Positions 1 through 23,955 of a stretch of 23,955 bases of DNA are shown in pieces. The stretch lies in the NCBI GenBank assembly GCA_900128565.1, contig LT636007.1:1-23955 (forward strand), read 5' to 3'. Source of the stretch: Stramenopiles sp. TOSAG23-6. Lineage: Eukaryota; Sar. A model generated the notes under the pieces. It saw only the letters and a program-made list of their open reading frames with translations, was not told where the DNA came from and ran no database searches. The position numbers and the translations under genes were made by a program. Each line of letters begins with the position of its first letter. The stretch's first letter is position 1.

Positions 1-55
1 CGTACGAAATTTCGTACCTAACGATTTTTTTTTGAAATATTTTTCCAAAATACAT
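1..55 (+). mobile_element. Introner-like intron, 3' part only (gene A)
   Basis: The window opens inside a copy of the element. It shows the perfect palindrome CGTACGAAATTTCGTAC, the CCTAAC box, poly-T, the AAATATTTTTCC box and the terminal ATACAT. Exon coding resumes at 56 with HIQRWK. The 3' half is nearly identical to the copy ending at 3298. Confidence 0.8.
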
Positions 56-3000
56 CATATACAAAGGTGGAAAGCTTTGCGATTAACAAATCTAAAGTCA
101 TCTATTGAGTCTCACGCACGTGCACAGATCTCATACCATCAAAGTTTAAAGAAACAATTTGAATGTTTATTAAATGATATGGAAAATAAAAATTTTGGAG
201 GATCCAAAAATGACCAAGCTAAACCTTTGATGCAAAATTCAATAGCTCATTGTAAGCAATATACTTCTACTGATACTGTATTCTCTGAAACTGTTACAGA
301 GAAAGACATACCACAAAAATGTATGTCAAATGATAGGCTCAACCAAAAATTGGAACTGTCATATAACCCTAACCCTAACCCTATAGAACACATTTCATCG
401 AATGACAATGGACAAAATCCATCGAATCCATCGAATTCGATTACTAATAAATCTAGTGATTTTGTTGCTGTTTTTGCCATTTGTGTGGTCGAAGTGAGGC
501 ATATTTTTCGTGAAATAAGGAACCCATATATTGTTATTTCAATGGGTGGAATTGAGCATCGCGCATCATGTACAAGAATGTATGTTTTTATGATTCAATT
601 CATTTTTTTTTAAATTTAGTATGAAATTTTGTACCTAACAAAAAGTTAATTGTTTTTGAAATATGTTTTATCAATATATGTTTAATGATCGAGCAGAATT
701 TGGAGAAACATTTTGTTTTACTATTTATTCAGATACTGAGATGTGTAGAGTTGCGTTACATGTATGTTCTATTTTTTTTTCAAATTCGATTTTTTTGCGT
801 ACGAAATTTTGTACCTAACGATTTTTTTTTTTTGTGAAATATTTTTCCAAAAGATATGATGAAAGCAAAGGATCAATAGGTTCAATTCTTATTAGTCAAA
901 AAGATTTGAATAATCACAAAACGACATGTGGCGAATGGTGGTGGATTTTCCATGGTTTATATAGTGGTGAAGTTAGAATACGTTCTCATATGAACTTTGG
1001 TAGAGCTACGCTAAATAAAAAAGATGGTCATTTATCATTACATGATTTTGGTAAATTGTCAGTAGAAGGAAATGATCGAAATTCGGGTGCACGAAATCTG
1101 AGAAACAAAGTCAGTAGTGATAGTAGTAGACGATACACTGGTATAAATTCTTTACATGTTTATAATCAACAAAATGCAGGGTTATTACCAGCTAATGGAA
1201 CTTTTCTCCATTCTCCTTCGTATTTAAAGAATAATAGAAATGTTATTTCAGGATGGATGGATAATAATAATATTGATGATAATATCGATAGAAGTAGTGA
1301 AAGTTCAAGTAATAGAAAATCAAATATTGATAGAATAGAAGAGAACCATAACCCTCATATTATCATAGGCAGTCCATATAATAGAAAATTAACTGAAGGG
1401 AACTGTGATAAAAATGACTCTATATATGATAATTTAGGATTTCAAATTCCTCCCCACTGTCTCGGACTTGCTCATTTTATAGGCCTTGAGCAATGTAGAG
1501 AAATTCAACAATGTTCCCGATGGATTCAATTGAGCGGTGGCTATGAAAATGGCGTTTTTTCTATGCTCGAGCAACACGCAACACCTGTTGATGCATCTCA
1601 ATTCGCATCACCTGTAGATGTATCCCGACCTTGCCGTGTACTCATGTATGTTTTTTTTTTTTTCAATTTCTAAATGTTTTTTTTTTGGTTTTCGTACGAA
1701 ATTTCGTACCTAACAAAAAAATCAAAAAAAAAATATTTTTTATACTACATATCGTCGGAATTAGGAGCTTTATTGTTTGGTGGAATTCCAACTACATTTC
1801 GATCGGAGGCCTATATGTGTCTTAGTGGCGCTGCTGCCATGAAATTACGACAACCAAAAGGTTATTATCAACAGCTTTATGACGGATCGATTGATCCAAT
1901 CGTTCGCAGGCAAATAGAGGACGATCTTGTGAGAACATTTGCTAAACAGCAAACTCGTATTAATGTGGTGAAAATCGATACAACTATAAAAAGAGTATCG
2001 AGTGAAAGCATTTTACCTATTACAAAAAACGATAGTACTGTTCATTTGAATATTTCAGATGAAACCACAACTAAACAGGAACCAGAGGCTTTAGCTGCCC
2101 TTCGTCGTATTTTATTGGCACATTCATTCAGGAATTCTGTTGTTGGATACTGTCAAAGTTTGAATCATGTTGCGGGTTTTTTACTTTGTCTTGGTACTAT
2201 TCATGAAGAATGTGTTTTCTGGATACTTTGCGCTGTGACAGAACGTTTATGTTGTGATTATTACGTACCTTCAATGTCTGGTTTACATCGGGATCTTCGA
2301 GTTCTTCGCGATTTAATGCAGAAACGGCAACCAGAATTAATGAGACATATGGATAGATTAGGTGTACCACTTGAAATGTTAGCATCTGGTTCATTACTGA
2401 GTCACTTTGTGTTACATCTTCCGACCCATACTGTGCTTCGTATGTTGGACATAGTTTTATGGCGTGGATCTCCCATGCTTCTTTTGACGGTTTTGGCGTT
2501 GATGCAAATGTCGCGTATGGATCTGCTTTCTGCACGTACTGCTGGGGAAGTCGCAACACGATGGAAATCATGCCAGGAGCGTTGTTACGATGCAGAAGGT
2601 TTAGTATCTCGCATTCGAGCAGAATGGATTGAACTTGGTGAAGGGACAATAGAAGAATTGCAAGCGAAACATGCAGCCGCGGCAAGATCTGAAGCTGAAG
2701 CATCACTACATAGTGCAGCTTTACGCCGTTTTGTTGGTGATGACACAACTTCAGGTGATGGCTTACGACAGAGTGTGCTTGACCAAGCGCATTTCACACA
2801 ATTATATGGACGTTTTGTTGAAGCTGCCGCAGCACCCGCAGGAAGATCTGCTGATCATCGTAGGTTAGATACATCTAGCTTTCGCGCATTGATGTTGCGA
2901 ACTTTCTTTGGTCTTCCTGTGAATAGCAGCCGGAGAACACTTGATGCTCTTTTTGAAGCTTTTGATGCCAATGGCGATGGAGAGTTGGATTTACAAGAAT

Positions 3001-3619
3001 TTATTACTGGAATGGGTATGATCAGTCCAACTGCAACAATTGAAGAAAAACTTCGTTTTTGTTTTAATTGTTATGACGCAGAGAAATCAGGGCAAATAGA
3101 AAAGCAATCACTGGCTGGTCTGTTACATACTATTGTTGCTGTTGCTATGCTTATGCTTGGACATCAAAATACACTATCAAAAGATGTAGTTGCAACGTTA
3201 CTTGATCATGTATGTTTTATTTTTTTTCAAATTCGATTTTTTTTCATACGAAATTTTGTACCTAACGATTTGTTTTGAAATATTTTTCCAAAATACATTG
3301 TCCGAGTTCTTCGCTGTCTTTTGTAGAGTTCTGTGAATATTTATACGCACAACCTCTTGTATCTGAGTGGTTGAATCTTCAGCAGCGTTTGAATGACTCA
3401 GGCATTATTATTAATTCTGGTATGAAAGAGATGAAAAATATGTCTGGGACAATATCCAGTAATACGACGAATAATCCAATTGACGAATATGAGCAAATAG
3501 AATATAATAATTATGGAAATACTGAAATAAATGAAAATGAACATCATAAATTTGGGGATTCGTATGCTGAAAAAATGTGGATAGACTGGCCACATCATGA
3601 TGGACGAAGTGGGCATTAA
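56..3619 (+). CDS. C2-TBC-EF-hand RabGAP-like protein (5' partial, five exons)
   Basis: Exons 56-579, 680-761, 858-1645, 1751-3209 and 3299-3619 join in one frame (3174 nt, 1057 residues visible); the start lies upstream. Residues 1-45 look like the last helix of a BAR-type coiled coil. A C2-like domain follows at about 140-235 (YIVISMGG, then WWWIFHGLYSGEVRIRS), interrupted by two introns. After an Asn/Ser-rich linker comes a TBC domain at about 466-720. It keeps both GAP fingers: the arginine in IEDDLVRTF and the glutamine in VVGYCQSLN, so it is probably an active Rab GTPase activator. An EF-hand with loop DANGDGELDLQEF and a weaker second one follow near 860-960. TBC plus EF-hands recalls the TBC1D8/9 layout, which predicts calcium- and membrane-linked Rab inactivation. 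Every splice join was chosen to restore frame and domain continuity, for example LLDH|CPSSSLSFVEF in the EF-hand region. Confidence 0.85.
364..383 (+). repeat. Telomere-like CCCTAA triplet repeat in an exon
   Basis: Three CCCTAA units within gene A's first visible exon, encoding YNPNPNPIE. It is too short to be a true interstitial telomere. Confidence 0.6.
580..679 (+). mobile_element. Introner-like intron (gene A, C2 domain)
   Basis: 100 nt, GTATGT...ATATAT, phase 2. The join AGA AT|G TTT restores ...SCTRM|FNDRAEF... inside the C2 domain. The core is GTATGAAATTTTGTACCTAAC. The upstream exon ends in AT, repeated at the intron end. Confidence 0.8.
762..857 (+). mobile_element. Introner-like intron (gene A, C2 domain)
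   Basis: 96 nt, GTATGT...AGATAT, phase 0. The join CAT|GAT GAA gives VALH|DESKGSIGS, continuing the C2 domain. It carries the full element: poly-T, CAAATTCG, core CGTACGAAATTTTGTACCTAAC and AAATATTTTTCC, with the end 21 nt from the start of that last box. Confidence 0.85.
1646..1750 (+). mobile_element. Introner-like intron (gene A, before TBC domain)
   Basis: 105 nt, GTATGT...CTACAT, phase 2 (AT|A). It joins CRVL to ISSELGALLFGGIP, the typical start of a TBC domain. The core is the perfect palindrome CGTACGAAATTTCGTAC followed by CTAAC. CAT occurs at both borders. Confidence 0.85.
3210..3298 (+). mobile_element. Introner-like intron (gene A, EF-hand region)
   Basis: 89 nt, GTATGT...ATACAT, phase 0, with CAT at both borders. 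The join gives LLDH|CPSSSLSFVEFCEY. Using nearby AG dinucleotides (after CCGAG or TTGTAG) shifts the frame into stops. Its first 60 nt are nearly identical to the copy at 23895. Confidence 0.88.
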
Positions 3620-3746
3620 TTGAGGATTTATAAAATGAGGTTTGATTTGGAATGTTTCGAATTTTTTGATGGTAATGAATTGAATTTGTTTTTGATTGAC
3701 AAAATTTTTTATGACTTTTTAATTTTAAATGTAGATAAAACTTTTA

Positions 3747-4951
3747 TTATTTAGCTTGGTCTAATTGTTTTTGAGAAGGTAGCTTCGGTACCGGGGGAAT
3801 TGGTCTATTTCCCATCAAGAATGATGGACGTCTTGGAACAGGAGGTGAAAGGCATGTATAGTGTTTTTTTATTAGAAGAAAACCCGTTAGGTACAAAATT
3901 TCGTACGAAAAAAAATTTCAATTTGAAAGAAAAATCAATTTTGAAAACGTACGAAATGGTGGGTTACGAATTGTTGCAGGAAAAGCACAATTTTTAAGAT
4001 CTATTCGAGAAACCTTTATCGCTCCAACGAGTCGTTCCGGCAACTCTTCCATACTTTGTGATTCTATCAAATATCCAAGTTCTAATTCCAATTTTTTCGC
4101 ACAACCGGATTTGTCTTGTGAAAAAATATTGTTTTTTTGGTTAAAAAAAATGTAAGGTACAAAATTTTCATACAAAAAAAAAGAAATGTCTAATGTAAGT
4201 GGACAACATACACGAGTCCTAAAATTTTTCTAGCAATCTGAGAGGAACAAACATCACAATCCACTTCAAAATAATTAGGACCACGAAAATATGCACATTT
4301 TAATTTTTTACCAATAATTGCAGGACGTTGGACACCCAGACTTTGAAGCGTTTTTTTCATTAACATTGGTGCTGAAATGACTTTACAAACAAATTTCATA
4401 CGGTTATTACGATATTCATTTGTTCCATTTAAAATGGAATCCAACAACTTTTCGAATTGAGGATCAGAATCCTTATCTAGCGTTTTTTCAAATAGGTTAA
4501 CAACATTTACATGCTTCTTGCCAAAATTGATTTGCCAACAAAAGACAAAAAAGAATGACTCGGCGTGACTTTTGATAAAATCATGAAGTTCAAGAATTCT
4601 ATGAGACACATGCTGTAGAGATTTATCACCCACATCAAGCACAGAAAACCCACATGGGCGAAACGCACAAGGTTCAGGCTCTACTTTCCTTTTATCTATA
4701 AGATATGTAGGACCTCGTAATAACCAGCCGCCACCAGCTCTTCCAGGTGTGATTGGTGCAGCTGGAGACATTGTGTTTTTACGAATACAGTCGGTTCCGA
4801 TTTCCTCAGCATCTGGATTAAATGTAGTAATATTTCCAGGTAACCAAACATCATAAGCAGTCTTTCGTACTGGTGCTGTACGTAAGGGACCTGCAACTGG
4901 TGTTTTCATTCCACTGGAATTAGTAAATGAGTTTGTAAAGGATTTGAACAT
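3747..4951 (-). CDS. EDR2_C / DUF1336 domain protein
   Basis: Exons on the minus strand are 4951-4212, 4110-3953 and 3853-3747 (1005 nt, 334 aa, stop TAA at 3747-3749). The product is essentially one EDR2 C-terminal domain (DUF1336). Visible hallmarks are WLLRGPTYLIDK near residues 75-86, the NFGKKHVNVVNLFEK segment, the block GKKLKCAYFRGPNYFEVDCDV (about 218-238), SSQIARKILGLV, and EELPERLVGAIKVSRID near the end. In plants this domain occurs in ENHANCED DISEASE RESISTANCE 2, usually behind PH and START domains and linked to lipid binding. Here it stands alone with a short Pro-rich tail (SPPVPRRPSF). The molecular role is otherwise unknown. The gene is divergent from the BCKDH E2 gene, 411 bp away. 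The first ATG of the open frame is used as the start. Confidence 0.82.
3854..3952 (-). mobile_element. Introner-like intron (gene B, second)
   Basis: 99 nt read on the minus strand, GTACGT...ATACAT, phase 1 (C|GC). It joins TIRNPPF to RLSPPVPRRPS and reaches a stop codon 35 codons later. The core is CGTACGAAATTTTGTACCTAAC. The upstream exon ends TTTC, so no duplicated AT is seen here. Confidence 0.78.
4111..4211 (-). mobile_element. Introner-like intron ending in AA (gene B, first)
   Basis: 101 nt on the minus strand, GTATGT...CACAAGACAA, phase 2. The end was placed by two criteria that agree: the fixed 21-nt spacing from the AATATTTTTT box, and the join GLV|SGCAKKLELELGYLI, which keeps the normal spacing of the EDR2_C domain. 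An alternative end at 4126 (ATAT) is also in frame but inserts five residues. The CTAAC box is CTTAC here. Confidence 0.7.
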
Positions 4952-5362
4952 GTCAGTGGTGTATACTTCCGTGGTGTGAAACTAAATACTCTATTCAATC
5001 AAGTATATCGTAAAAATATATTACAATAGACCTAAAATGCAACGAGTGTATAATTAATTACAGTATTTTAGTTATATAATGTCGTGATTTAGCTTTCTTT
5101 TGGTGATTGACATCTGGAATTGTAGTAGCTACGTATCCAAAATCTCTCGAAAACCGAAACCAAACGAACGAATTTGCTACTTGTAATGACACTCTTCTTC
5201 TATCTACAATCATCAATTTTTTTTTTTAAGTACAAAATTTCGTACAAAAAAAAAACACGAAATAAAAAAATATTTCAATAGTTAGTGTTTCCTTTCTTCG
5301 AATCAAATCTTCATCTCAAAGGAAGATCCTAATCTAGGTACCTAAAAAAAGAGACTCGAACA
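4952..5362. promoter_or_regulatory. Divergent intergenic region between genes B and C
   Basis: These 411 bp separate two divergently transcribed genes and should hold both promoters. Apart from AT-rich sequence and the element remnant near 5209-5286, I see no RNA gene, open frame or clear repeat. Confidence 0.5.
5209..5286 (-). mobile_element. Degenerate element copy upstream of gene B
   Basis: Read on the minus strand, this stretch holds GAAATATT, poly-T, TTGTACGAAATTTTGTACTTAA and a further T run. The core matches the introner family, but the arms are not in standard order and no GTATGT/AYAT pair is evident. It lies in gene B's 5' flank, in gene B's orientation, so it may be a decayed copy or a 5'-UTR intron. 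Confidence 0.5.
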
Positions 5363-6951
5363 ATGTTACGTACTACATTAGCAGTATCCAAATCGACACA
5401 TATCTTGTCTCGTATAGCATTTAGATTTCCCCAACCTTGTATAGGTCTTCCATTTCAACGTCATTTTCATTCCACAACTTCAGTGAACAAGCAAGTTGCG
5501 TTTACTCTACCCGACGTCGGTGAAGGCATCGCAGAAGTTGAAGTTTTACAGTGGTATATCAAGGAAGGCGACGAAATTTCCCAATTTGACAAAATATGTG
5601 AAGTGCAGAGTGATAAAGCTACGTTAGATATAACGAGTCGTTTTGATGGTACGGTTGCCAGTCTTTCATATGGTGTTGGTGACATGGCACAAACCGGAAG
5701 TACATTGTTCATGATTGACGTTGAGGGGGGTTCAGACGATATTGAATCAGACGATATTGAATCTACGCCGCCCCCACCTAAAGATAGTTCACCAAACTCT
5801 TCTTCTACACCTAATGATACATCAATACATCGTGAGAAATCACTTCCTTACAACAATTCCGATGGAAAAGTTCTGGCGACACCTGCAGTACGCAGGCTTA
5901 CTAAAGAAAATGAATTAGACATAAGTCAAATAGTAGGTACAGGTAAAGATGGTCGTATTTTAAAAAGTGATGTTCTTGAGTATATGAATAGTTCAAATAG
6001 TGATTCACAAATGTATGTGTCGTCACCGCCTGTGTTTTTAACAAATCAAGAGGATAAAGTAGTTCTAATTAAAGGCGTACAACGTGCTATGCTTGCAAAA
6101 ATGAATGAAGCTCTTAAAATTCCACATTTTGGTTACAACGACGAATTTTCAATGACGGCACTTTCTACTGTGAGAAATGATTTACAAAAAAGTGTTGGAG
6201 ATAATCGTGGTATCAAAATTACTTCAATGCCTATTCTCATGAAAGCAGCATCTCTCGCGTTACATCAGTTTCCTGTCATAAATGCCAGTATAAGTGATGA
6301 TGAAACGTCAATCAAGCATCATGCAGCACATAATATAGCTTTTGCAATGGATGGACCATCAGGTTTGATTGTGCCTGTGATTTCACACGTGAATCAAATG
6401 TCAATTGTGGAAATTGCTGAGGAAATGACACGTATCATGTACGTCATTTTCATCATTTTTCAATTTTTTTTTTGGGTAGGAAATTTCGTAATTAACAAAA
6501 ATTTTAAATTGTTTTGAAATATTTTCACAAAATACATAGCAATCGGTCAAAAAGGAAAATTGAGTAATGCTGAACTTACAGGAGGAACTTTTACACTTTC
6601 GAATATTGGTAGTATTGGTGGAACATATGCATCGCCTATTATATTACCTCCTCAAGTTGCTATAGGTGCACTTGGAAAAGTTCAAAAACTTCCTCGATTT
6701 GGAGAAGATGGTACGTGCATATGAATTTCTAATTTAATTTTTTTTCATACTAAATTTTGTACTTAACGATTTTTTTTACGGAAAAAAAATATATGTTTCA
6801 TAATACATGTGAAGTCGAGGCAGTAGAAATTATGAATGTTAGCTGGTCGGCTGATCACAGGGTTATTGATGGGGCTACAATGGCAAGGTTTTCTAATGCA
6901 ATGAAGAGTCATGTGGAACATCCAATGTCAATGCTTTCAAACTTACGATAA
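5363..6951 (+). CDS. DBT: Branched-chain 2-oxoacid dehydrogenase E2 (dihydrolipoyl acyltransferase)
   Basis: Exons 5363-6438, 6538-6710 and 6809-6951 give 463 aa, close to the roughly 480 aa of animal homologues. This is the core acyltransferase of the mitochondrial BCKDH complex, which moves branched acyl groups from lipoyl-lysine to CoA in Leu/Ile/Val breakdown. Residues 1-43 are a basic, Ser-rich mitochondrial presequence. A lipoyl domain follows at 44-120 with the lipoyl lysine K85 in QSDKATLDI. The E1/E3-binding domain is at about 169-207 (LATPAVRRL...[13 protein letters not shown]). The catalytic domain runs from about 225 and ends with the active-site motif HRVIDG (H433, D437). Both introns fall in the catalytic domain. 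The joins restore [17 protein letters not shown] and [13 protein letters not shown], both matching the family. A related E2 of another 2-oxoacid dehydrogenase is possible but less likely. Confidence 0.92.
6439..6537 (+). mobile_element. Introner-like intron (gene C, first)
   Basis: 99 nt, GTACGT...ATACAT, phase 2 (AT|A). CAT is repeated at both borders. A nearby ATACATAG could offer a canonical AG end at 6539, but that join shifts the frame to an early stop, whereas the ACAT end restores the conserved catalytic domain. The core is weakened (GGTAGGAAATTTCGTAATTAAC). Confidence 0.88.
6711..6808 (+). mobile_element. Introner-like intron (gene C, second)
   Basis: 98 nt, GTACGT...ATACAT, phase 1 (G|GT). 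The join [26 protein letters not shown] restores the last strand and active site of the E2 domain. The branch-like box is CTTAAC. Confidence 0.88.
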
Positions 6952-7000
6952 CTGTACAATTTTATTTTGAAATTAAAAATTATTTTGTGTTGTCATATTT

Positions 7001-10000
7001 CTACTTTTTATTTGCTAATATTCCTTTAAGCATGCCACCTTTAACAATACCACGAAGTTTTCTTGAAGGCTTTTTCTCTTGTGATGAAATTTCACTGAGC
7101 TTTTGAAAAGCTGCGAACCAAAGTTTTGATATTTCCAGAGAAGTTGCTTCTAAATCTAGAGTTCTCAGAGGAGTATGTAGAGATAAACAATTCGCACTAT
7201 CTGTCTCTTTACCATGACTACGTGTAAATACCTTTGAAGCATGACCATCAGTAATATCCGAGATGTGAGATAATTTGATTCCACTATCTGATTTAAGCTG
7301 AGAAGCAGTTTTTGCACGCATTTTTGTTACTTTTCCGACTTTACACCATCGAACAAAACCATCACTTTCATCTTTTGTAAAATCAACCCAAACAAATCTT
7401 TGATTAGGAGCACCTCGACGTCCATGTTTCCTAAATTCCGCACCTTGAATAAGCATCATTTTCATTTCTTCCAAGTTTTGTTCTTTTATTTGTTTGTGGC
7501 GATGTTCACTAAATTCTTTTTGATTGGTGTTATCGGTAACTGACTCTTTTATTTCTTCTTCCGTTTTTTCTTCAGAATATTTTTCTGTTTCAATGCCCAT
7601 TTTGTTTTCTTCAAGACTTTCAGTTTTATTATCTACATTAAAAACAGATGATTCTCGAAAGTTTTCTATTTCAGCATCTTTAGTGTGCAGAGCTACAAAT
7701 TCTTTGAATAATTGCGACTCTTTATTTCCCCAAATACCATCTACTTTTAAATTTGCTCCATGCGCGTTGAGCATTTTCTGAAGAGCTTGAATGACAGAGT
7801 TATCTAATTCATTGCCATTTATTGGTAGTGGAGAATGTTCAGCGCTATTCTTATTTAAATACTGTTTTAGTTTAATTATGGTTTCCGCGCCTACTATACC
7901 ATCTACCTTGAGGGATTTATGTCCGACAATCTCTTTATTCAAAAATTCTTGGAGGCTTTTCCGTGATACAATATTTCCAAAATCAATTTTTGATATGAAA
8001 TTTGCTGCATTCTTTGAATGTTTTCTTTTTGACAAATCTACAAATGATGATTGTTCAGATGATTCATCTGTTATATTTGTACTTCCAAGTTCTCCACTAT
8101 TAACATTGTCTTTGTCTTCGAGAGAATAATCATCGGAAGTATTACTTGCATTTTTATCAGTAATTGATTTTGATTGTGATTTATTATTACTATTGTTATG
8201 TTGTTCATTCCTCTTGTCGTTTGAGTAATTGTTACCTTTTTCACTCCTCTTATCGTTTGAGGGGTGATGTAATTCAGACAACGTTTTCCCTTGAGATTGA
8301 GTGTTAGGTTGCTCTCGACTAGCAAAAAGTTTTCGTTTTGATGGTGATGTGTCAGAAATACTACGATAATGACCTCTTTCTCTTCGCGAGATATTAGACT
8401 CTTTACTAGATGTACCAGACAACTCACTAGGTAGACTTCTTCTATGTGAACGTTTTTTGTTTCCAAGTAAATGATCATATTCAAATTCTTTAAGATGTCT
8501 ATGACTACGTGGAAATAATGCTAATTGCCGCTGCAACTCCATCAAAATATTTGCACCCATACCTGCACATTCATGTTTAGTAAAAAAATATGGTTTGAAT
8601 TTGAAATTTGTTAGGTACATAATTTTCTATGAAAAAAAAATAATTTTGAAATTCATGATGAAAACATACATGAGCCTTTTGAAATGAACCATTATATGAC
8701 CTAAATGGTGTCTCATGAAACGGTTTAGACTTTCTCGTCATATTTTTAGTATGACTTTTAGTATGACGTTTATCAGATGTCGTACTTTTTTGTTTTCTTT
8801 TTGTTTTTTTTTCAACACTTTTTCCGACACTTGAAATTACTAATTTACTTGGACTTACAGTGTAATCTATGTAATGCTTATGGCCATGCAATCGATCAGA
8901 ATGATTACTTTGATCGTGAATATGACTTGTTTCTTTCATAAAGATATAAGTACCCGTCAAAGGATCGCGTCCATGTTTTATAAAGAAATATTTTAGAAAA
9001 AAAATTGTTAGGTACAATTTTTTTTTCTGAAAAAAACAATTAATTTGAAATGCATTATGAAAACGTACACTATCTTCTCGCCATATTTTCATAAGTTCTA
9101 ATCCAAATTTTTTAGCTGCTCGAAGTAATACAGCCGGGTTTGTCGCAGCAGCATACCTCGTTCTAAATCCAGCAACGTCTTCAGGGCGAGCTAAAACTCT
9201 ACCTATATGTTGTAGCAAACCTTTAAGCATATCTACTGGGCGAGCTTGATTAAAAGAATCAGCGAATGCGCCAAGAGCAAATCGAGCAATCGCATCTAAG
9301 AAATGACTGAAATGCATATGGGAGTTGTAACTTACACGAACTTCACTATTTTCGAAAGAACTTGTTTTAAATTGCTTTTGTTGCGCATCATCATTTTGAC
9401 CAATTTTGTTTATATTATTCGATGTTTGTTCCTCACTTGTTTGATTTTCACATGCACGTGTTGGTTTTTGCATTCCACCACAACAACAAGCAGCTAAATA
9501 ACAATCTCCATGTGGTGTGAAGATATATGCCAGATTCGAAATTCGTTAAGTACAACAAACTAAATAATTTGAATGAAGCAAAAAGAAAATTAATTTTAAA
9601 TTAATAATGAAAACAAACGTATTCAATCATTGGAATTTGTAAATTAGAAAAATCCAAATCTTGAGTAAGTTGAAGGAAATCTTGATAGCTAAATATACCA
9701 AGATTTTGTCTATTTGAAGATCTTTGATTTCCATGATCATTTTTAGATCGTTTAGAATGCCAAACTTCGGTGCCTAAACCCGAATTCCAAGAAGACCAAC
9801 CACCCTTGTATGAATTAACAGTCCGGTCTCTTTTTGGTCCTATATTTCGATCTCTATGTAATTGTTGTTGCTTTGTTGGTGCATAAAAATTAAAAATTTG
9901 CCATAAAGGATCTCGAAATCGATGCATGAGAGCCAAAACAGCTGGATCTCTCAACTGGGTAGTTTGAGTCGCCCATTTTGCAACATTCCAACGTTGAGCT

Positions 10001-11508
10001 CGGGGAAGTATTCTGTCAACTAAAAGTTCAAGAACAATTTGTTGAGGTCCATTTGGCAATTGAACTCTTTTTGGTAGCATGCCTAAAGAAACCCTAACAA
10101 GAGCATTTACAAAATCATCAAAGGAGAGCCTTCGACTACCTTTACCTTTTGTGATTCCACCTACTATGCGTCTTCGACCTCGACCATCACCTGAGTCTTT
10201 GTGTCTTCCTCGTGATTCTGCATAAAATACAACATTTGCTTCAGCTTCTTCAATTAATCCTCGATTTCGTGCATCATCTGGATGACAATTTCTACCTAGT
10301 AAGCCACAGTCAAATAAAAGTTTACGCCAACATCGACTATGAAGTCGTTGTAATGATAGTGGATCACCAGTTACACAATAATATGTGAATACCAACCATA
10401 TATTGTGAAAAAATATTTTACATTCAAATGTTTTGTTAGGTACAAAATTTGGTACGAAATATTTTTTACATTCAATTTTGAAAACGTACATAATTCTCCT
10501 TCAAGGTTTAGTTGCTGTTTAGAATTTGGTGTGTGAATACTTAAAGATGGTGGTGAAACAGATTCTGAATAATTCTCATCCCAATTTTGAAGCGGGTGTG
10601 ATGGAGGTGGAGACATCTGAGGAGAGCTTATACGTGTACTATTTTTACTCAAAGATTTCGGAGATTTTCTCTTCACTTTTGTTTTTGTATCTCCATCGTC
10701 TATTACACTATTATCAGCACGTTTCTTTTTCAATTCTTTGATAATTACCTTCTGATTTTCTTCATCCTCTGTACTGTATAAAGATGAAATGTCTTTTTCC
10801 GGTGATGATTGCGTATCTACATGTAAAAGAGACGTTTTAATTCCTCTCGGTGTTAGGATAAGTAAAGAGTTATCGTGTCTGGGTTGTGAAAGTATTGTGA
10901 AAAATATTTTACATTCGAAATTCGTTAGGTACAAAGTTTGGTTCAAAAAAATAAATTTGGAATTCATTACGAAAACATACAAGAACTCGAATCACAAAAG
11001 CGCTTTCAGGCCAAACGCAGTTATCTTGGTCTAGAAGGACGTAAGTTGTTGCCTGCGAGGGAGAATGTGGATCATTACTAACAGTAACGCCATCTTTAAC
11101 ACACCAGTATCGCATAGCGTCGCGTCGAAGATCACTGAAAGTATACGAGCTCGGAATCCAACTAGAAAACTCAGTTCGAGTTACAGCATGTATTACCGTG
11201 ACTTTTGATGTTTCTGTAGTACTACCTAACGGCCGAAGACGTATACATGGCAGAAAAGCATATGCTTTCATACTGTCTTCTTGTTTGCGTGATACAGGCA
11301 CGCCATCATCTAATAAAAAGGAATAATGCCTCGGAAGGCCGTCTAAGTCCCGGTGTAAAAGACGTCGAATTTCAGAAAGACGAGTATCATCGTACGTTGT
11401 CACAAAACCTATATAACCCATATTTTCTATTGCTACTCGAAGGGTTGCCGCCATAGATGGTGCACTACTAGAACCAAATAGTCCCGAGGCTGGAATTGAC
11501 TCCTGCAT
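7001..11508 (-). CDS. Large multidomain protein: beta-grasp-like N-terminus, repeated F-x-x-F modules, peptidoglycan-binding-like repeats, PH-like domain
   Basis: Six minus-strand exons, 11508-10981, 10889-10490, 10397-9619, 9509-9069, 8972-8670 and 8572-7001, join to 4023 nt (1340 aa, stop TAG). Residues 20-110 look like a ubiquitin/beta-grasp fold (LRVAIENMGYIGFV...HYSFLLDDGVPVS). At about 315-450 and 545-680 are two related modules containing SFDDFVNALVRVSL and HFSHFLDAIARFAL, resembling EF-hand-like or p25-alpha-like segments without obvious calcium ligands. A Ser/Lys-rich linker follows. Two peptidoglycan_binding_1-like repeats lie near 1013-1105, each with LKVDGI(V/W)G. The C-terminus (about 1190-1316) is PH-like (GAEFRKHGRRGAPNQRFVWVDF...SLHTPLRTLDLEATS). 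I do not recognise the whole protein. The PH-like part suggests membrane or cytoskeletal attachment. It is convergent with gene C, 49 bp away, and divergent from gene E. Confidence 0.78.
8573..8669 (-). mobile_element. Introner-like intron (gene D, fifth)
   Basis: 97 nt on the minus strand, GTATGT...AAACAT, phase 0, CAT at both borders. The join is QKAH|ECAGMGANILMEL. A canonical AG lies 10 nt further on (TGTGCAG), but using it shifts the frame to a stop within a few codons. Confidence 0.85.
8973..9068 (-). mobile_element. Introner-like intron, frame-neutral (gene D, fourth)
   Basis: 96 nt on the minus strand, GTACGT...AAACAT, phase 0. The join is WREDS|GRDPLTG. The element is a multiple of three and has no stop in frame, so an unspliced message would carry 32 extra residues. 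The left half of the palindrome has decayed to A runs; TTGTACCTAAC is intact. Confidence 0.78.
9510..9618 (-). mobile_element. Introner-like intron (gene D, third)
   Basis: 109 nt on the minus strand, starting with the variant GTTTGT and ending CACACCACAT, phase 0. The join is MIEY|GDCYLAACC. The end was placed by alignment with the copy at 10890-10980 (shared ACGAATTTCGAAT, then a CACA-type end). An alternative in-frame end at 9525 (CATAT) would insert IFTPH. The branch-like box is CTTAAC. Confidence 0.65.
10398..10489 (-). mobile_element. Introner-like intron (gene D, second)
   Basis: 92 nt on the minus strand, GTACGT...CAATATAT, phase 1 (T|GG). The join is EGEL|WLVFTYYCVTGDPLS. TAT is found at both borders. 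The core is GGTACCAAATTTTGTACCTAAC-like, with one mismatch in the palindrome. Confidence 0.78.
10890..10980 (-). mobile_element. Introner-like intron ending in TT (gene D, first)
   Basis: 91 nt on the minus strand, GTATGT...CAATACTT, phase 0, joining FVIRVL|SQPRHDN. The upstream exon ends CTT and the intron ends CTT. This is the one copy with a TT flank and the one with a TT end, which supports a target-site duplication. The nearby AG (AACCCAG) gives a stop two codons later. Confidence 0.75.
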
Positions 11509-15483: not shown

Positions 15484-15736
15484 CTCTTATGCAATATTAA
15501 AATACCGATATGATTAAATTGACTAAAGTCGTGTCTTCTTCTGTGTTTATGAAAAAAAAATACTTTGTTTGACTGACATCGACATGTGGCGCAAAAACCA
15601 GTTGATGACGTGTCATTTTTTTTTTTTTTTGGCCACATGTGTCGAAAGAAGTCATAAATTGTCGTCAAAGTCGACTCTACGTAATACGCACGAAGTTTTT
15701 TATTCTATATAGCCCGTTTTTGTACTAGTTAGTAAC
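15484..15736. promoter_or_regulatory. Shared divergent promoter of two complex I genes
   Basis: 253 bp between the NDUFS5 and gamma-CA-like start codons. It contains a run of 14 T near 15618-15631 and an AT-rich TTTTTTATTCTATATAG about 25-40 bp before the gamma-CA ATG. Shared control is inferred only from the arrangement. Confidence 0.4.
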
Positions 15737-16432: not shown

Positions 16433-16462
16433 TTTCTTTATTTTCTTTCTACTTTTATAACC

Positions 16463-16496
16463 ATATTTTTTTTCATACGAAATTTCGTACCTAATA
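16463..16496 (+). mobile_element. Element core remnant 3' of the gamma-CA gene
   Basis: Poly-T followed by CATACGAAATTTCGTACCTAA, in the same orientation as the upstream gene. No GTATGT start and no AAATATTTTT box follow. The sequence turns into TATATAGATAGATAGGGTTAGGTT. It is a truncated copy or 3'-UTR remnant. Confidence 0.6.
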
Positions 16497-16629
16497 TATA
16501 TAGATAGATAGGGTTAGGTTAGCGTTGGTGGAAACACATTTTACCATGTCCATTTATTTTTTAAATAAATTACATTTTTAAATCTCAAACTTGTTTTGTT
16601 ATATTTCAATACGCGAACGTCTTCATCAT

Positions 16630-17643: not shown

Positions 17644-18166
17644 GTTAAGAAGAAAAAAGGGTTAAGATTTTCTTTTAAAGTAAAAAAACGTGTACTGTGT
17701 TTGTATCAATAGGTATCTCTATGATAAGATCTATATCAATTATGACATTATGGAGAATAAATTATCCTTATGTATGGCTTATATTTAATATTTAATAATA
17801 GCTTGAAGATTCATGACAAAGGACAATGGAACAACGTTTTTTGTGAATTTCGAAATTCAATTCGGCAAAAAAAAACTGTCAAATTTTGAAGTTTGAAAAA
17901 AAAAAAATGAAAGTCAACAAGATGAAGAAAGAACAGTCAAGTCATAATCCTATAATATGTAAACAACAGCGAGCGAGTTCTAACTTCTAATAGAGCCAAT
18001 GGTCTGATAGTTGATTTTTTTTGCCGCACCAACTTTTTTTTCTCGCCGACTGTCTCATTGAATTGAACTATTATCCAACAACATAAATTGAAGTTTTACG
18101 ACACTAAATTTCTGACCTCTGTATATTTCAAGTTACGATAAATTATTGTTTTGAAGCGTCTACAAA
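17644..18166. promoter_or_regulatory. Divergent intergenic region between genes H and I
   Basis: 523 bp, AT-rich, containing the promoters of two divergent genes. There are A-runs near 17868-17876 and 17899-17908. No element core, RNA gene or convincing open frame is seen. Confidence 0.4.
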
Positions 18167-19423
18167 ATGGACTTTAATGAAGCTCCACTTGATACAAAAA
18201 AAATAGTTTCCCGCACACCACGGTGGTTTCCTTGTTTCATGATTTTAATTATGATATACACTATGATCAATATAATTATTTCGTTTGGTTTACATCGCTT
18301 CGCTTTTACCATACGTGATCATTCTTCTACAGCGTTTGTTGACCCATTACGGTGTAAGTTGGAAGCCTTGCAGTGGAGTCCAATTTCAGGATACTATCTA
18401 GAGACACGAAAATGTAAATGGTTACAACTAGGTGCAAAGTTACGAGGTATAGATGATGCAGAGAATCTTGCCTCAGCAATGAGAAAAGTTCCCTCCACAA
18501 CAGTCCGTAAAATTGAATTATGGGCAAATAAATTTGGAGACGTGGGTATACAGGCGGTTGTGGAAGCTATCCGTCAAAATAAAGCTTGGGAGAAGCTTGA
18601 AGAGCTCGATCTTACTCGTAACAAGCTATCACATGAGAGTGCAGAGCACATTGCTTCTCTCATACGAGAAAGCACATCACTCCGTCAAATGATCTTATAT
18701 GAGAATCAACTAGGCGAAGTTGGGGCTCAAACTATAGCAGAATCTCTCGTTTATAACACGCGAAAGGGCTCTGGGATTGAGAAATTATTCTTAGAATACA
18801 ATAATATTGGATCAAAAGGTGCTACAGCTTTTGCGAATGCACTGCACAAGAACCAGTCCTTACAACATCTTGATTTAGATCATAACCAAATTGGTGCTTT
18901 TGGCGCTTCACAAATAGCAAAGGCTCTCAGTATCAATGCAAGGAATGGGGAAGGGTTTGGTTTGCGACATCTTGATCTTGAAGCAAATAATATTGGAAAT
19001 GAGGGCGCAATTGCACTCGCTAATGCTCTTGGAAATAATAAAGACAGTAAAAATATTGTCCACACTAAAATAACACGCGCTGGAGATTGGGGTGGAGTTC
19101 TGATTGATCATTTAGATATTGCAGACAATAACATCACAGATTCAGGTTTAATTGCTTTAGCCAATATGCTACATCAAAATCGAGCTTTACTACAACTTAA
19201 CTTAAAAGGATCTAATGTGTTTAGTGACTCAGGTATAATTGCACTGGAAAATAGTTTACGTTGGAACGGTACAATTGAACGGATTTCTTTTCCTAAATTG
19301 ACAAATGAGAATTTAATGTCAACGGCCGGAAAAAGTGCGTTCAAAAAAATAAAAGGATATCTGTTGCGTAATCAAAATTTGCGACAAGAAGAGGACACAC
19401 GATTAGAGAAAACTGAATTTTAG
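18167..19423 (+). CDS. Single-pass membrane leucine-rich-repeat protein (RNI/NLRC3-like)
   Basis: 418 aa. A hydrophobic segment at about 24-47 (CFMILIMIYTMINIIISFGL) follows a short cytosolic-type N-terminus and probably acts as a signal anchor. From about 110 to 390 there are 8-9 ribonuclease-inhibitor-type leucine-rich repeats of about 28-34 residues. They carry the usual LxxLDLxxNxIGxxGAxxIAxAL pattern, for example LEELDLTRNKLSHESAEHIASLI and LQHLDLDHNQIGAFGASQIAKAL. Such repeats form a horseshoe for protein binding; no enzymatic domain is attached. The tail is charged. The target is unknown. There are no introns. Confidence 0.82.
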   Translation: MDFNEAPLDTKKIVSRTPRWFPCFMILIMIYTMINIIISFGLHRFAFTIRDHSSTAFVDPLRCKLEALQWSPISGYYLETRKCKWLQLGAKLRGIDDAENLASAMRKVPSTTVRKIELWANKFGDVGIQAVVEAIRQNKAWEKLEELDLTRNKLSHESAEHIASLIRESTSLRQMILYENQLGEVGAQTIAESLVYNTRKGSGIEKLFLEYNNIGSKGATAFANALHKNQSLQHLDLDHNQIGAFGASQIAKALSINARNGEGFGLRHLDLEANNIGNEGAIALANALGNNKDSKNIVHTKITRAGDWGGVLIDHLDIADNNITDSGLIALANMLHQNRALLQLNLKGSNVFSDSGIIALENSLRWNGTIERISFPKLTNENLMSTAGKSAFKKIKGYLLRNQNLRQEEDTRLEKTEF

Positions 19424-19492
19424 GTGTTTGATTGATATTTTTACCTTGTTGCAAATAAAACACACACTAGTAAAACGAGCAATTTGATCTTT

Positions 19493-19550
19493 ATTTCTAA
19501 AGAAAGCACTTCCACATGCTTCATAAAGTCCATTGATTTCTAAAGAAAGC
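19493..19550. repeat. Short direct repeat between genes I and J
   Basis: ATTTCTAAAGAAAGC occurs at 19493-19507 and 19536-19550. The following bases are also similar (CTTCATAAAGTCCATT and TTATAAAGTTCATT), so an imperfect unit of about 43 bp is tandemly duplicated in the convergent 3' region. Confidence 0.65.
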
Positions 19551-19602
19551 GATTACGCATTTTTTTTATTATAAAGTTCATTCAGATTCCAATACAAGTC
19601 TA

Positions 19603-19968
19603 TTACTTTGCTGACGCTTTCTTCTCAGCCTTGACTTCCAACTCCTTGACTTTTTCAGTCACTTCATCAATTGCTTTAGCTCCTGCCTTTGCTGCTTTGT
19701 CCACTTGGGCTTCAACTTTTTCTGATAATTCTTCCGCTTTATCTGCAACTTTTTCCGCGGCAGCTAACGCTTTAGCTTCAACACCATCGGGATTTTTTGC
19801 TGCATCTTTCTTGACCTTATCTTTCAATTGTTTCTCCTCACTTTCGATCGCTTTCTTAACATCTGCCTCCAACAAGTTTGCCTCTTTAGTTACCTCTTTA
19901 GCTATTTTTTTTACTGATTCTTCAGCTTCTTCAACAGCGTGTTCCATTTTTTTAACAAGTGATGCCAT
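19603..19968 (-). CDS. LEA-like / amphipathic helical hydrophilic protein
   Basis: 121 aa, almost entirely Lys, Glu, Ala, Val and Asp, with no Cys or Trp and no signal peptide. The 11-residue-like periodicity (KKIAKEVTKEANLLEADVKKA, AEKVADKAEELSEKVEAQVDKAAKAG) predicts one long amphipathic alpha-helix or a disordered chain that folds on drying or on membranes, as in group 3 LEA proteins. No catalytic motif is visible. A stress-protective or lipid-surface role is an inference; a coiled-coil structural protein is an alternative. Codon usage is richer in G/C than in its neighbours, which fits a well-expressed gene. A long antisense frame over the same span is a shadow caused by the composition. 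Confidence 0.7.
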   Translation of the reverse strand: MASLVKKMEHAVEEAEESVKKIAKEVTKEANLLEADVKKAIESEEKQLKDKVKKDAAKNPDGVEAKALAAAEKVADKAEELSEKVEAQVDKAAKAGAKAIDEVTEKVKELEVKAEKKASAK

Positions 19969-20472
19969 GTTGATGTGTTTTGTTTCGATGTTTTTATAAC
20001 CAGTAAAGACTTATGATATATTATCTTAAGGGGATACGAAGGACATACGGTAGTATACTGTAACGGTAAATCTTGACCGGCAAAGCAAAGATCGTTCTTG
20101 ATTTCGTGTATTGATTTTACCAAAGACTCTTGAATAGCTGAAAAAAATCACTCATATGTTGGATTTTAAAATAATTTAGTACTATTATATATATATATGC
20201 TTAGATTGCTGTGAAAAAACAAATGTTACTTTAAAACAGAGTATTTAGTAGTGCTTGAAGTAAAAATATTTAATATTTGTATGTGTTGACATCACATATC
20301 ATTTGTGATATATATACAAACAAAGGATTCTCAATTTCAAAAGGATTTTTATAAATAAATCCTTACTTTTCTCTGTTAAATATATATGTAACAAAGTACA
20401 GAAAGTACATTGAATATTCAACCTTGATATTCAACCTTGAATAAATCCTCCAAATTTTTTTCTGGTAGTGGT
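19969..20472. other. Intergenic region between genes J and K
   Basis: 504 bp, very AT-rich. It includes an (AT)n stretch near 20185-20198, a small hairpin-capable ATCACA...TGTGAT near 20291-20309, and a 13-bp exact tandem repeat (ATATTCAACCTTG) at 20414-20439. No supported gene or element core is seen. The 20400-20470 part is probably the 3' UTR of gene K. Confidence 0.45.
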
Positions 20473-21777
20473 TTACCTTAAAAATTTTGATAGTTCTTCT
20501 GATGGAGTCTGTTCAACATTTGGTTCCAGTTTTGTTGCTTCTGATGTCGATTCTGACGGGGTCAGATCTATTGTTGTTTTCGTAGTTTTGGGACAGTCAC
20601 AAAGTTTTGGACATTTGCAAGGTTGTTCAGCTTTTGGTTCCACAAACCGAGGTTCCAATACTGGTGTTTTTTGAACTTCTGATGCCGGTTTTTCATCTTC
20701 TGCAGGTTCTGTTACCTCCTTGTGTAAGTTGTACATTTTTGTTTCCGTAGTTTTGGGACAGTCACAAAGTTTTGGACATTTGCAAGGTTGTTCAGCTTTT
20801 GATGCCGGTTCTTCTGCTGCAGGTTTTGTTGGTTTTGTTGCCTCTGACGATTTCCCTTTACAATCCCCACACCCGTTCTTGACAGCATCTTCGAGTTCTT
20901 GGGCTTGGTTCAAATGAACGTTAATCTCCAAGTCCGCGGCCTCCTCAGTTGAGCAATCTGGAGTTTTCTGTTGACATTTTTTTTCTGTATCGTTGGAATC
21001 GTTTTGTTTTTTTGTTGGACATTGTATTGCCCTTTCAAATCTTTTTTCGAAGTTACATACTTTGTGTTTGCACTGCATCAATACATCACGATTTGAAAAA
21101 ATAATTTTGCCATTTGCATCAGCATATGGAGGTTCTCGCGCTGCTACTTTTTGTAATAGTTCCTCACAAAATGCAGCCGTAATTGGATTTTCTTCGAGTT
21201 CCCGTTCGCTAGGCTTTGGATCAATAAATTGTGTGTTGTTTGTCGTCTCTGTTGTAGATGCTGTAGGATCAGGGAAAGCAATAAATTTTCCTGGTGTTGT
21301 TGCTGCTGCGTCTGTTGCTTCATCATCATCATCATTTGCTGATGAATCAGTATCATCATCTGTTACTGCCGCCGCTGTCGCCGCTGCGCCTGGTGCTGCT
21401 TCTCCATCATCATCATCATTTGCTGATGAATCAGTATCATCTGCTGCCGCTGCTGCATCTTCATCATCATCATTTGATGATGAAGCAGCATCAGCAGTAT
21501 CAGTAGTATCCTCTGTTACTGGTGTTGCGTCTGCTGCGTCTGGTGTCAGACCCTCAGCAATCTTTTCCATTGTATTTTGGCCTTCTTCATCAATTTTGCC
21601 GTTTGTTGTTGGCACAAGTGGTTCATTCGACTGATCTGATTTTCGGAACATTCCTTTCAACCTGTTCATATCCCAGTATCTTGAGTATGGCCATGCTAGA
21701 ACGTGAGTCGCAAAAATAGTCACAAATGCAAAAAGCAGAAGTATTGGAGAACGCATCGTGGATTGTTTAGAATTCAA
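20473..21777 (-). CDS. Secreted or surface acidic protein with Cys-rich repeats
   Basis: 434 aa. Residues 8-28 (MRSPILLLFAFVTIFATHVLA) form a clear signal peptide; Met1 or Met8 may be the start. Residues about 80-170 are low-complexity Asp/Ala/Ser/Thr runs encoded by GAT/GCA/TCA trinucleotide repeats. A middle part (about 190-300) has several cysteines (CEELLQKV, CKHKVCNFEKRFERAIQCP, CQQKTPDCS, NGCGDCKG). The C-terminal third carries two identical blocks containing EQPCKCPKLCDCPKTT, separated by a Glu/Pro/Thr-rich linker. No known domain is recognised. Composition suggests an extracellular, possibly metal-binding or cell-wall protein; this is inference. The DNA repeats point to recent internal expansion. 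There are no introns. Confidence 0.72.
   Translation of the reverse strand: MNSKQSTMRSPILLLFAFVTIFATHVLAWPYSRYWDMNRLKGMFRKSDQSNEPLVPTTNGKIDEEGQNTMEKIAEGLTPDAADATPVTEDTTDTADAASSSNDDDEDAAAAADDTDSSANDDDDGEAAPGAAATAAAVTDDDTDSSANDDDDEATDAAATTPGKFIAFPDPTASTTETTNNTQFIDPKPSERELEENPITAAFCEELLQKVAAREPPYADANGKIIFSNRDVLMQCKHKVCNFEKRFERAIQCPTKKQNDSNDTEKKCQQKTPDCSTEEAADLEINVHLNQAQELEDAVKNGCGDCKGKSSEATKPTKPAAEEPASKAEQPCKCPKLCDCPKTTETKMYNLHKEVTEPAEDEKPASEVQKTPVLEPRFVEPKAEQPCKCPKLCDCPKTTKTTIDLTPSESTSEATKLEPNVEQTPSEELSKFLR
20581..20800 (-). repeat. Exact 55-bp direct repeat in gene K
   Basis: Positions 20581-20635 and 20746-20800 are identical over 55 bp and encode the EQPCKCPKLCDCPKTT block. The spacing is 165 bp (55 codons). 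Identity at third codon positions implies a recent duplication or gene conversion. Confidence 0.9.
21315..21500 (-). repeat. Trinucleotide-rich tract in gene K
   Basis: Clusters of TCA/ATC and GCT/GCC triplets encode Asp, Ala and Ser runs. The block TCATCATCATCATTTGCTGA recurs near 21322 and 21405, giving the repeated protein string DTDSSANDDDD. Confidence 0.75.
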
Positions 21778-22097
21778 TATTTAGATTAATGTTGGAGATG
21801 TGTGTAATACAATCTCAGATCTATATCTAAATCAGAGAAAGAGCAACAAATTTTGCTTCAGAGGTACTTATTCTATTTAGAAGATTTAGATTCGTTTCGT
21901 TGTTCTATCCAGTGCGCAGTGTGTTTCCCAGACGAAACAATTTTTTAACGTACTTCTTCGATCGACAACTATAATCGTACAAACCTGCTCAAAAATTCCG
22001 GGGATTTTCATATCGATCAGATCATGAATCATGATTTGCATTCTCACACCTGTATAGTGTCAAAAACATAAAACGCTATATTAAAAAACGATTAATT
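21778..22097. promoter_or_regulatory. Divergent intergenic region between genes K and L
   Basis: 320 bp between two divergent start codons, presumed to hold both promoters. I see no element core, RNA gene or repeat in it. Confidence 0.4.
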
Positions 22098-23894
22098 ATG
22101 GCAAGTAATACCAATGAGATGCCAAATTTTCGTTGCAGTGAGTTATATGAGGAACACAGAGACCATACTGCTGATAATATAAATCTTTCATGTGAACAAA
22201 CAAGTCAGAGTTCTTTTCGAAACACGACATATACGACAACAAGAACTGATCAGCTATTAGAGTGTGAAGAATATTCGCCTGAAAGTTGCACTGATGATAA
22301 GTTAGTTGGAATAATGTTTGACCTTTATACTATTCAAGATGATAATACAAAGAATTCCATAAAGAAACAGTTTCAAAAGGAACAAGCAAGACAAAAAACA
22401 GAGACATTGGAAGAATTTAACTTTAGAGTATTTGCTTTGACCTGGTTTTCAAAAATAAAAAATATAAGAAACAAAACCCTCAAGAAACTTAATGAGCATA
22501 AAAGGAAGAAACAACAAAAAAAGGCAAAGAATGCAAACAAACGAACAAAAAAGAAAAAACGACAGAAAAAAACAAGTACACTATAACACACCATGCATTT
22601 TAATTTATTTTTTTTGCTATGAAAATTTTCATAGTAAATTTTGTACCTAACAAAAAAAAACGTTTAAATATTTTTTCTTTATACAGCTGAGTTAAATTCA
22701 TTTAGACTTCAACTCGGTTTAACAGTTCACACTAGTAGCTCTGATGATGATGATGATCAATTTAGTAGTAGTGGTTATGGAAATGAGAGTATTTCAAATG
22801 AATGTGATTTTAGTTACAGTTTGAAAGAAATAGAAATACACGAAATGAAGGATTTTGACAAAGAGTGTTGCGAGTCATTTGTATGTAATAAAATTGTGCG
22901 GGAGATACCAACGGAGTCAAAAATAGAGTATACCGAGAAGAATGACATTCAACAAATTCAAGATTCATCAAATACAATCTTTGGTACGGATTCAATTTCG
23001 AATTTGTCAAATGCCACACCTCTGGAATATCTATTAGAACACGAAATCGACGTAGGTCCAAAAGTACTAAACTATATCCCGGAATTTCGATACAAAAACG
23101 ATAATTGTGAAAGATATAATGAGTTAAATAATAATGAAGTAATCAATAAGTTAAATGATAATGAAGTAATCAATAAGTTAAATGATTATGCTTCACTCGC
23201 TATAATTAATAACGTAAATGATACTGATACATCTAGTAGTACTATATTTGATGATATTACTGATACATATAATACTACTATAATTGATGATACTACTGAT
23301 ACATCTAGTAGTACTATATTTGATGATACTACTGATACATCTAGTAGTACTATAATTGATGATACTACTGAGCTAATTTTACATGAAAAGGCATTAAATC
23401 TTGCAAATCTCACAAATTTCTCATTAGAGTATTGTAAAATTGCTTTGAAACAAAATATAAATAGTTCTATACAAGATATTGCATCTTGGCTCTCACATGG
23501 GACAAAAACAAAAAATCGTTTTTCTACTAAACCAATGAAAACAAAAAATCGTTTTTCTACTAAACCAATCGAACTATCCATGCAATATAAAAGTAAGAGA
23601 TGCGACACTCAACAAATTCGAAATTCATTAGGTACAAAATTTGGTACGGATTTTACTTTGTCTGAATTCTCTACATTTTCACAAAAGCACCAATCCAATC
23701 TAAATCATAGTACTTGTACTCCATCCACAAACAAACCTGTTTCTACTTTTCCGAAATATACTCAATTGGCGAAAATAACAAAATGTAAAAAAATACATAG
23801 TAGTAGTGATGATGAAATAAAAATAACAAAATGTAAAAAAATACATAGTCAATGTAGTAGTGATGGTTTTATTGACTACGAAACGCTTTGGCAT
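22098..23894 (+). CDS. Repeat-rich basic/acidic protein with UBA-like segment (3' partial)
   Basis: Exons 22098-22575 and 22687-23894 join in frame (562 codons before the next intron), and the gene continues past the window. The N-terminus is Ser/Thr/Glu-rich. Residues about 115-158 are a lysine-rich stretch (KRKKQQKKAKNANKRTKKKKRQKK) that could be a nuclear signal. After the first intron come an acidic Ser/Asp tract, then 9-residue (NEVINKLND x2), 12-residue (TDTSSSTIFDDT-like x4) and 11-residue (KTKNRFSTKP x2) repeats. Between them, LILHEKALNLANLTNFSLEYCKIALKQNIN...SIQDIASWL fits a UBA-like three-helix ubiquitin-binding segment. Without splicing the first exon would stop at 22584-22586, yet the sequence after the element keeps an open, protein-like frame. 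The function is not recognised. Confidence 0.65.
22576..22686 (+). mobile_element. Introner-like intron with canonical AG end (gene L, first)
   Basis: 111 nt, GTACAC...TTATACAG, phase 1. The AAATATTTTTT box starts exactly 21 nt before the AG, as in the copies that end in ACAT. The core carries an extra perfect palindrome CTATGAAAATTTTCATAG ahead of TAAATTTTGTACCTAAC. An in-frame alternative end at 22671 (ATAT) would add IFLYT. The join given is KKT|TELNSFRL. Confidence 0.65.
23133..23366 (+). repeat. Coding tandem repeats in gene L
   Basis: Two 27-bp units at 23133-23186 (NEVINKLND each) and four 36-bp units at 23223-23366 (TDTSSSTIFDDT and variants TDTYNTTIIDDT). All are in frame and differ by only a few bases. 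Confidence 0.85.
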
Positions 23895-23955
23895 GTATCT
23901 TTTATTTTTTTTCAAATTCGATTTTTTTTTCGTACGAAATTTTGTACCTAACGAA
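23895..23955 (+). mobile_element. Introner-like intron, 5' part only (gene L, second)
   Basis: Starts GTATCT after CAT, phase 0, and runs through poly-T, CAAATTCG, CGTACGAAATTTTGTACCTAACG to the window end. Compared with the copy at 3210 it shows about three differences over 60 nt by eye. Confidence 0.82.

Follow-up and report, generated by a model that had tools for sequence, protein, structure and literature searches.

The window analyzed here, the whole 23,955-base stretch of contig LT636007.1 (C57), is one complete contig of a genome assembly of 8,027,113 bases in 408 contigs, derived from what is probably an uncultured stramenopile. Its genes include those for an EDR2_C-domain protein, for BCKDH E2 and for a gamma carbonic anhydrase, and several genes are interrupted by members of one family of introners, predicted introns that resemble each other from end to end and lie at many unrelated sites of one genome. 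Sixteen copies were found on the two strands, 14 complete and two truncated (Table 1). A preliminary description had counted 15 interruptions; it was right about the family and its presence on both strands, though not about the total, and the lengths of 89–111 nt that it gave are those of the 14 complete copies. In 13 full-length copies placed by eye, six on the plus and seven on the minus strand, the reading frame is open over the junction when the cut is made before GT and after the 3′ dinucleotide.

Table 1. Introner copies of the window, with intron ends and the three exon bases to the left of the intron
Feature	Positions	Strand	Ends	Left flank	Observations
Truncated introner (3′ part)	1..55	+			Precedes first exon seen of gene 56-3619; core and ...CCAAAATACAT end read directly
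Introner	580..679	+	GTATGT..ATATAT	AAT	In frame; 2/3 phases open
Introner	762..857	+	GTATGT..AGATAT	CAT	In frame
Introner	1646..1750	+	GTATGT..CTACAT	CAT	In frame
Introner	3210..3298	+	GTATGT..ATACAT	CAT	In frame
Introner in EDR2_C gene	3854..3952	-	GTACGT..ATACAT	TTC	In frame
Introner in EDR2_C gene	4111..4211	-	GTATGT..AGACAA	CGT	Imperfect repeat, end AA; in frame; Pfam score favours left dinucleotide
Introner in BCKDH E2 gene	6439..6537	+	GTACGT..ATACAT	CAT	In frame; homolog alignment
Introner in BCKDH E2 gene	6711..6808	+	GTACGT..ATACAT	ATG	Imperfect repeat; in frame; homolog alignment; Pfam score
Introner	8573..8669	-	GTATGT..AAACAT	CAT	In frame
Introner	8973..9068	-	GTACGT..AAACAT	AGT	In frame
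Diverged introner	9510..9618	-	GTTTGT..CCACAT	TAC	In frame
Introner	10398..10489	-	GTACGT..ATATAT	TAT	In frame
Introner	10890..10980	-	GTATGT..ATACTT	CTT	In frame; TT on both sides, as expected of target duplication
Diverged GT-AG member	22576..22686	+	GTACAC..ATACAG		Core GTACCTAAC at 22643-22651; frame continues across without stop
Truncated introner (5′ part)	23895..23955	+			GTATCTTTT.. through core; read directly

Extent and anatomy of the family

With at most one mismatch allowed, 21 occurrences of the core motif GTACCTAAC were counted in the window, compared with a mean of 2.4 and a maximum of 7 in 100 shuffles. Genome-wide, 2,378 exact core sites were counted versus 62 for the reversed control pattern, together with 340 exact sites of the 3′-end pattern TTTTTCACAATACNNNB versus none reversed, and 196 sites of a 5′-end pattern finishing in GTACGTTTTCAT versus one for its control, so that the motif amounts to far more than a few local repeats, even if these counts are somewhat inflated because some contigs look like self-inverted duplicates. 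On contigs C2 and C4 (L025, L026, L027), mirrored motif positions suggest self-inverted copies of the kind seen in whole-genome-amplification chimeras.

About 274 kb, comprising the window and 25 stretches of 10 kb, was examined in long pieces. A first pass yielded 114 introner copies, and one exact duplicate was later removed from this set. The automatic caller gives a lower bound, having retained nine of the 13 window copies placed by eye, with two of their 3′ ends positioned differently. A search of the same DNA that ignored the core and relied on the two ends and an open frame gave 91 candidates, compared with zero in reversed sequence; the core-based set had already included 88 of the 91, and the exact core is present in 70. 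The exact core pattern was absent from viral contigs and prokaryote genomes, and Rfam returned no match in the window at the gathering threshold.

In the consensus of the 114 copies, flanking AT (72% and 90%) is followed by GTAYGTTTT, and the element finishes in TTTTYCACAATAY and two further bases, mostly AT. The donor G and T are conserved in 92 and 98% of copies, and both the GT donor and the branch site of a canonical U2 intron are present. The last nine bases of the core, which include the branch site, are conserved at 92–100%, a figure somewhat favoured by the choice of the best match, compared with 56–94% for the left arm of the palindrome. An RNA hairpin around the palindromic core found little support: of six core pairs, a single one paired more often than in shuffles, and folding stayed close to the shuffled level (mean z −0.73, 58 copies). 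Combined, the conservation of the core and its weak pairing and folding indicate that it reads as a branch-site signal and not as a preserved hairpin. Two core-like palindromes of the window, at 16466-16496 and 5221-5255, lie outside any modelled intron, the former immediately following the gamma carbonic anhydrase gene and the latter upstream of the E2 gene.

The copies had been described as near-identical. They form instead a family with subfamilies, in which mean pairwise identity is 56% and the best pair reaches 92% (full alignment, 110 copies). Over 91 alignment columns, the standard deviation of pairwise identity was 0.088, versus 0.044 after permutation of columns and never above 0.049 in 200 permutations; identity of the closest pair was 0.956 versus at most 0.879, and 114 pairs shared at least 85% identity versus at most two. 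Variants at the 5′ and 3′ ends are also associated (p 0.002). As such lineage structure is not reproduced by column permutation, the members are copies and not merely introns under a strict consensus. The proposal that the family spread by copying is thus supported by its lineages and by the insertion-site duplications described below.

Tandem and clustered copies were observed in two places. At L010:7483-7680, two introners follow one another without an exon between them, the second starting at the end of the first. At ca. 37-3380 of contig C13 (minus strand), 13 core motifs lie within 3.3 kb, spaced by 170–470 bases. Nucleosome-linked spacing has been reported for other introners, and the exon spacing on C13 may follow nucleosomes.

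Intron boundaries and the duplicated dinucleotide

Boundaries were assessed by a frame test in which ends were called by sequence alone and at least 30 open codons were required on both sides of the cut. Score cut-offs were passed by 94 of 111 copies, of which five lay too near an end, leaving 89. When the cuts were placed before GTAYGT and two bases downstream of ATAY, 78 of the 89 kept the frame, compared with only 19–23 for registers out of phase with that cut. Models that end the intron at the first AG, sought either from ATAY onward or beyond CTAAC with several minimum distances, kept 35–40 copies in frame, and the first YAG kept 33; first-AG 3′ splice sites were discarded on these grounds. 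Unspliced read-through already leaves 30 codons open in 30 of the 89, which indicates that the introns are poor in stops and that the AG models barely improve on no splicing at all. The corresponding count in a set with frame-aided ends, 101 of 110, is not independent as the 78 of 89 is. The claim that introners always point in the sense of the host gene stands for these 78 strongly scoring copies, and not for the 11 that fail the frame test.

The frame test is blind to shifts of three, and two other lines of evidence bear on the exact cut. In the BCKDH E2 gene, 11 of 11 homologs align without insertion or deletion over the junction at 6439..6537, and 10 of 11 do so at 6711..6808, the remaining one having an extra residue. 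Where the repeat flanking the intron is imperfect, keeping the left dinucleotide gave the higher Pfam score in all three families tried (DUF5672, 72.6 versus 66.3 bits; EDR2_C at 4111..4211, 155.4 versus 152.4; 2-oxoacid_dh at 6711..6808, 258.1 versus 254.6). Together, frame, homolog alignments and imperfect-repeat scores place the start of the intron at GT and its end after the final dinucleotide. Among 100 sampled ends, that dinucleotide was AT in 71, TT in 12, GT in 10, AG in 3, AA in 2, and AC and GC in one each, the sample being the first 100 of the 340 places with one exact 3′-end form and including at least six mirrored pairs. The canonical U2 3′ AG is therefore confined to single members, and most introns of the family would be GT-AT.

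The final dinucleotide also tends to repeat the exon dinucleotide that precedes GT. Both were identical in 72 of 105 copies, versus 52.3 expected by re-pairing, and none of 5,000 shuffles reached that value; ends in this set were chosen with the help of the frame, and five of 110 copies without an open frame were left out. A directed test was then based on the left flanks of TT- and GT-ended copies, fetched from 40 of 47 and 20 of 25 listed places, respectively; left out were one duplicate, one copy that was too short, three TT- and two GT-ended copies without a findable 5′ end, and one GT-ended copy without left bases. TT-ended copies had TT on the left in 23 of 36 cases (Fisher p ~2e-11) and GT-ended copies had GT in 13 of 16 with a readable flank (Fisher p ~1e-8, counting the unreadable one as a miss), compared with left AT in 60, TT in 3 and GT in 5 of the 73 AT-ended copies of the main set, which came from frame-aided calls. 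A longer duplication was rejected, since agreement at the third base is weak (40 of 105 versus 32.2 expected, p 0.02). As excision of the intron would take one duplicate along, the gene would have had a single dinucleotide before the insertion. The repeat has the form expected of the target-site duplication of a DNA-transposon-type introner. The mostly non-AG ends, and the apparent identity of the last two intron bases with the target-site duplicate, had escaped the preliminary description.

Mechanism and rival explanations

The whole is very probably explained by a transposing DNA element whose 2-bp target duplicate is co-opted as 3′ splice site, a reading that draws on what is observed in the DNA itself: boundaries, frame restoration, direct repeat, copy lineages and genome-wide number. 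Short non-autonomous elements of ~95 bp with ends GTAY...ATAY would insert into AT, less often into TT or GT, and duplicate it. The element would supply the U2-type 5′ splice site (GTAYGT), a U tract, the strict branch site formed by CTAAC within GTACCTAAC, and, toward the 3′ end, a U-rich/CACAATAY segment, and the downstream copy of the target dinucleotide would become the last two bases of the intron, the 3′ splice site usually being YAT and not YAG. Cutting before GT and after that dinucleotide, the spliceosome would remove the element with one duplicate and restore the frame in any phase; the phases of 100 assignable copies are distributed 35/35/30. Removal would be RNA splicing by the U2 spliceosome and insertion would be the work of a DNA transposase. 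A bolder proposition, for and against which we see the chances as even, is that the spliceosome of this organism no longer requires AG, the branch site and the U-rich/ACAATAY segment setting the 3′ end and any duplicated dinucleotide being accepted, in which case a mobile element would have reset the 3′ rule for most introns.

Several observations weigh against the transposition of a DNA element as set out above. No clearly intergenic full-length copy was present among the 89 tested, while ~16% of the examined DNA lies outside long open frames, and random transposition by itself does not explain this; depletion, fast decay or targeted insertion are candidate causes. The terminal inverted repeat, GTAY...ATAY, is only ~4 bp long in the end logos of the 114 copies. 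Besides the open frame of many unspliced copies, 11 of the 89 fail the frame test: in about six of them a 3′ end lying a few bases further downstream is more likely, one belongs to a tandem pair and one is ambiguous; the full-length copies at L011 2994, L026 5420 and L028 (-) 9662 are in frame only if cut two bases later. The repeat is missing in about one third of TT-ended and one fifth of GT-ended copies, and one of the three shifted controls of the repeat test came out at p 0.046, the other two showing no signal. As to an autonomous partner, a search for DDE_3 and DDE_Tnp_4 domains found no DDE_Tnp_4 in the genome, the assembly being possibly incomplete. It found a 432-codon open reading frame that encodes a DDE_3 (IS630/Tc1 type) transposase domain at L034:796-2091 (contig C298), which was set aside as partner because introner ends do not enclose it; introner-like ends lie next to this gene on its downstream side, at L034 2368-2460 (-).

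Four other explanations were weighed, all of them improbable. The one that survives best, though still very unlikely, is reverse splicing, in which an excised intron re-inserts in another RNA that is copied to DNA and recombines. It predicts sense-only, genic-only insertions, which is what the test-passing copies show; yet it makes no duplication, whereas the frame indicates that two local bases go with the intron, and these tend to match the local exon and not a constant parent end. A 2-bp target duplication would give the observed repeat and reverse splicing would not. Less likely again are structured non-conventional introns of the euglenid or Amoebophrya type, with a hairpin joining the ends, to which the non-AG ends, the direct repeat, the palindromic core and the one core pair that pairs above shuffles would be congenial; the other five pairs, the near-shuffled folding and the poorer conservation of the left arm relative to the branch-site segment argue otherwise. 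Smaller still is the probability of ordinary GT-AG introns under strict consensus, their AG lying just beyond the visible end: GTAYGT and CTAAC are ordinary enough, one window copy ends in ATACAG and three sampled ends are AG, but first-AG models fare little better than no splicing and lineage structure exceeds column permutation. Elimination at the DNA level, as of the internal eliminated sequences of ciliates, leaving one copy of the 2-bp repeat, would account for that repeat and for the precise register of excision, but it is the least credible, given that ciliate eliminated sequences are not known to be oriented relative to genes, whereas the introners have a fixed polarity: their donor, branch site and U tract follow the sense of the gene, as 78 of 89 copies do.

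Host, known systems and significance

A Prp8-type domain is present in the genome, so that a spliceosome probably exists. A search for the U2AF small subunit gave eight CCCH matches, of which the one on contig C16 resembles tristetraprolin fingers in a PDB search. When the spliced E2 sequence was used as query, no near-identical transcript was among the 120 matches listed, the best one showing 56% identity. An environmental protein shares 98% identity with the EDR2_C gene (window 4190-4951, minus strand) and runs into the same intron start, for which reason it appears DNA-like and not spliced; a second strain probably shares this insertion. As to the host, a diatom-labelled entry and oomycetes were among the best named matches of the gamma carbonic anhydrase, and in a small unrooted tree of 22 chosen sequences it grouped with unnamed environmental relatives and the diatom-labelled entry, apart from oomycetes. 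The 5′ end of a eukaryotic 18S rRNA lies at L009:1-564 (contig C1, minus strand).

The following comparisons are based on parts of the papers cited. Introners are described as similar introns at many unrelated sites, some families having target-site duplications that supply one splice site (Gozashti et al. 2022, PMC9860276), and the present family resembles them in both respects. In a Chrysochromulina example, the element brings its 5′ site along and the 3′ site is co-opted, with a 4-bp duplication, and duplications given for earlier families are of 3–9 bp (PMC9860276); here, by contrast, the duplication is only 2 bp long, with a co-opted 3′ site that is usually non-AG, and that survey starts from annotated introns. 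The introner elements of Amoebophrya are repeated non-canonical introns with direct repeats over their boundaries (Farhat et al. 2021, PMC7789003); they comprise many families with 8–20 nt inverted repeats, 3–5 nt direct repeats and no clear dinucleotide signature (PMC7789003), unlike the one main family found here, with its strict GTAYGT donor and branch site, 2-bp repeat and no supported hairpin. End-pairing inverted repeats of 8–20 nt were not found in it. AT 3′ ends are shared with the non-canonical introns of Fritillaria, where 3′AT ranks first among 3′ ends with 44% in F. pellucida and 34% in F. borealis, where introns nearly always close with a YAY triplet and often follow one, and where a U2AF duplication is shown (PMC13326754); Fritillaria is, however, an animal whose most frequent non-canonical classes are AG/AC and AG/AT. 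ISL2EU transposons likewise duplicate a 2-bp AT, within the target A|AT|T (PMC4482050), whereas here TT and GT are also duplicated, no DDE_Tnp_4 was found and flanks lean to C and G, the base before the dinucleotide being A in only 25% and the base after it G in 46%.

A literature search for GT-AT introns in protists gave only one paper, on the ciliate Oxytricha and known by its title, and none with GT-AT phrases; none of the titles and abstract openings found describes such introns in a MAST-like stramenopile. In the cited parts of these papers, introners, co-opted splice sites and non-AG introners (PMC9860276, PMC7789003) and AT-ended introns in Fritillaria (PMC13326754) are already known. 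As far as seen, what is new is the combination of one dominant family, a strict donor and branch site, a 2-bp duplication and the use of the target duplicate as 3′ splice site, usually AT, although the family could be listed in part in the supplementary tables or sequence files that accompany the 2022 survey.

Surveys built on annotated introns probably overlook such families, since annotation software normally looks for an AG. The family offers a readable case of a DNA insertion becoming an intron, as in most copies the 3′ splice site can still be recognized as the duplicated target dinucleotide, and it would allow a test of the extent to which a spliceosome can dispense with AG.

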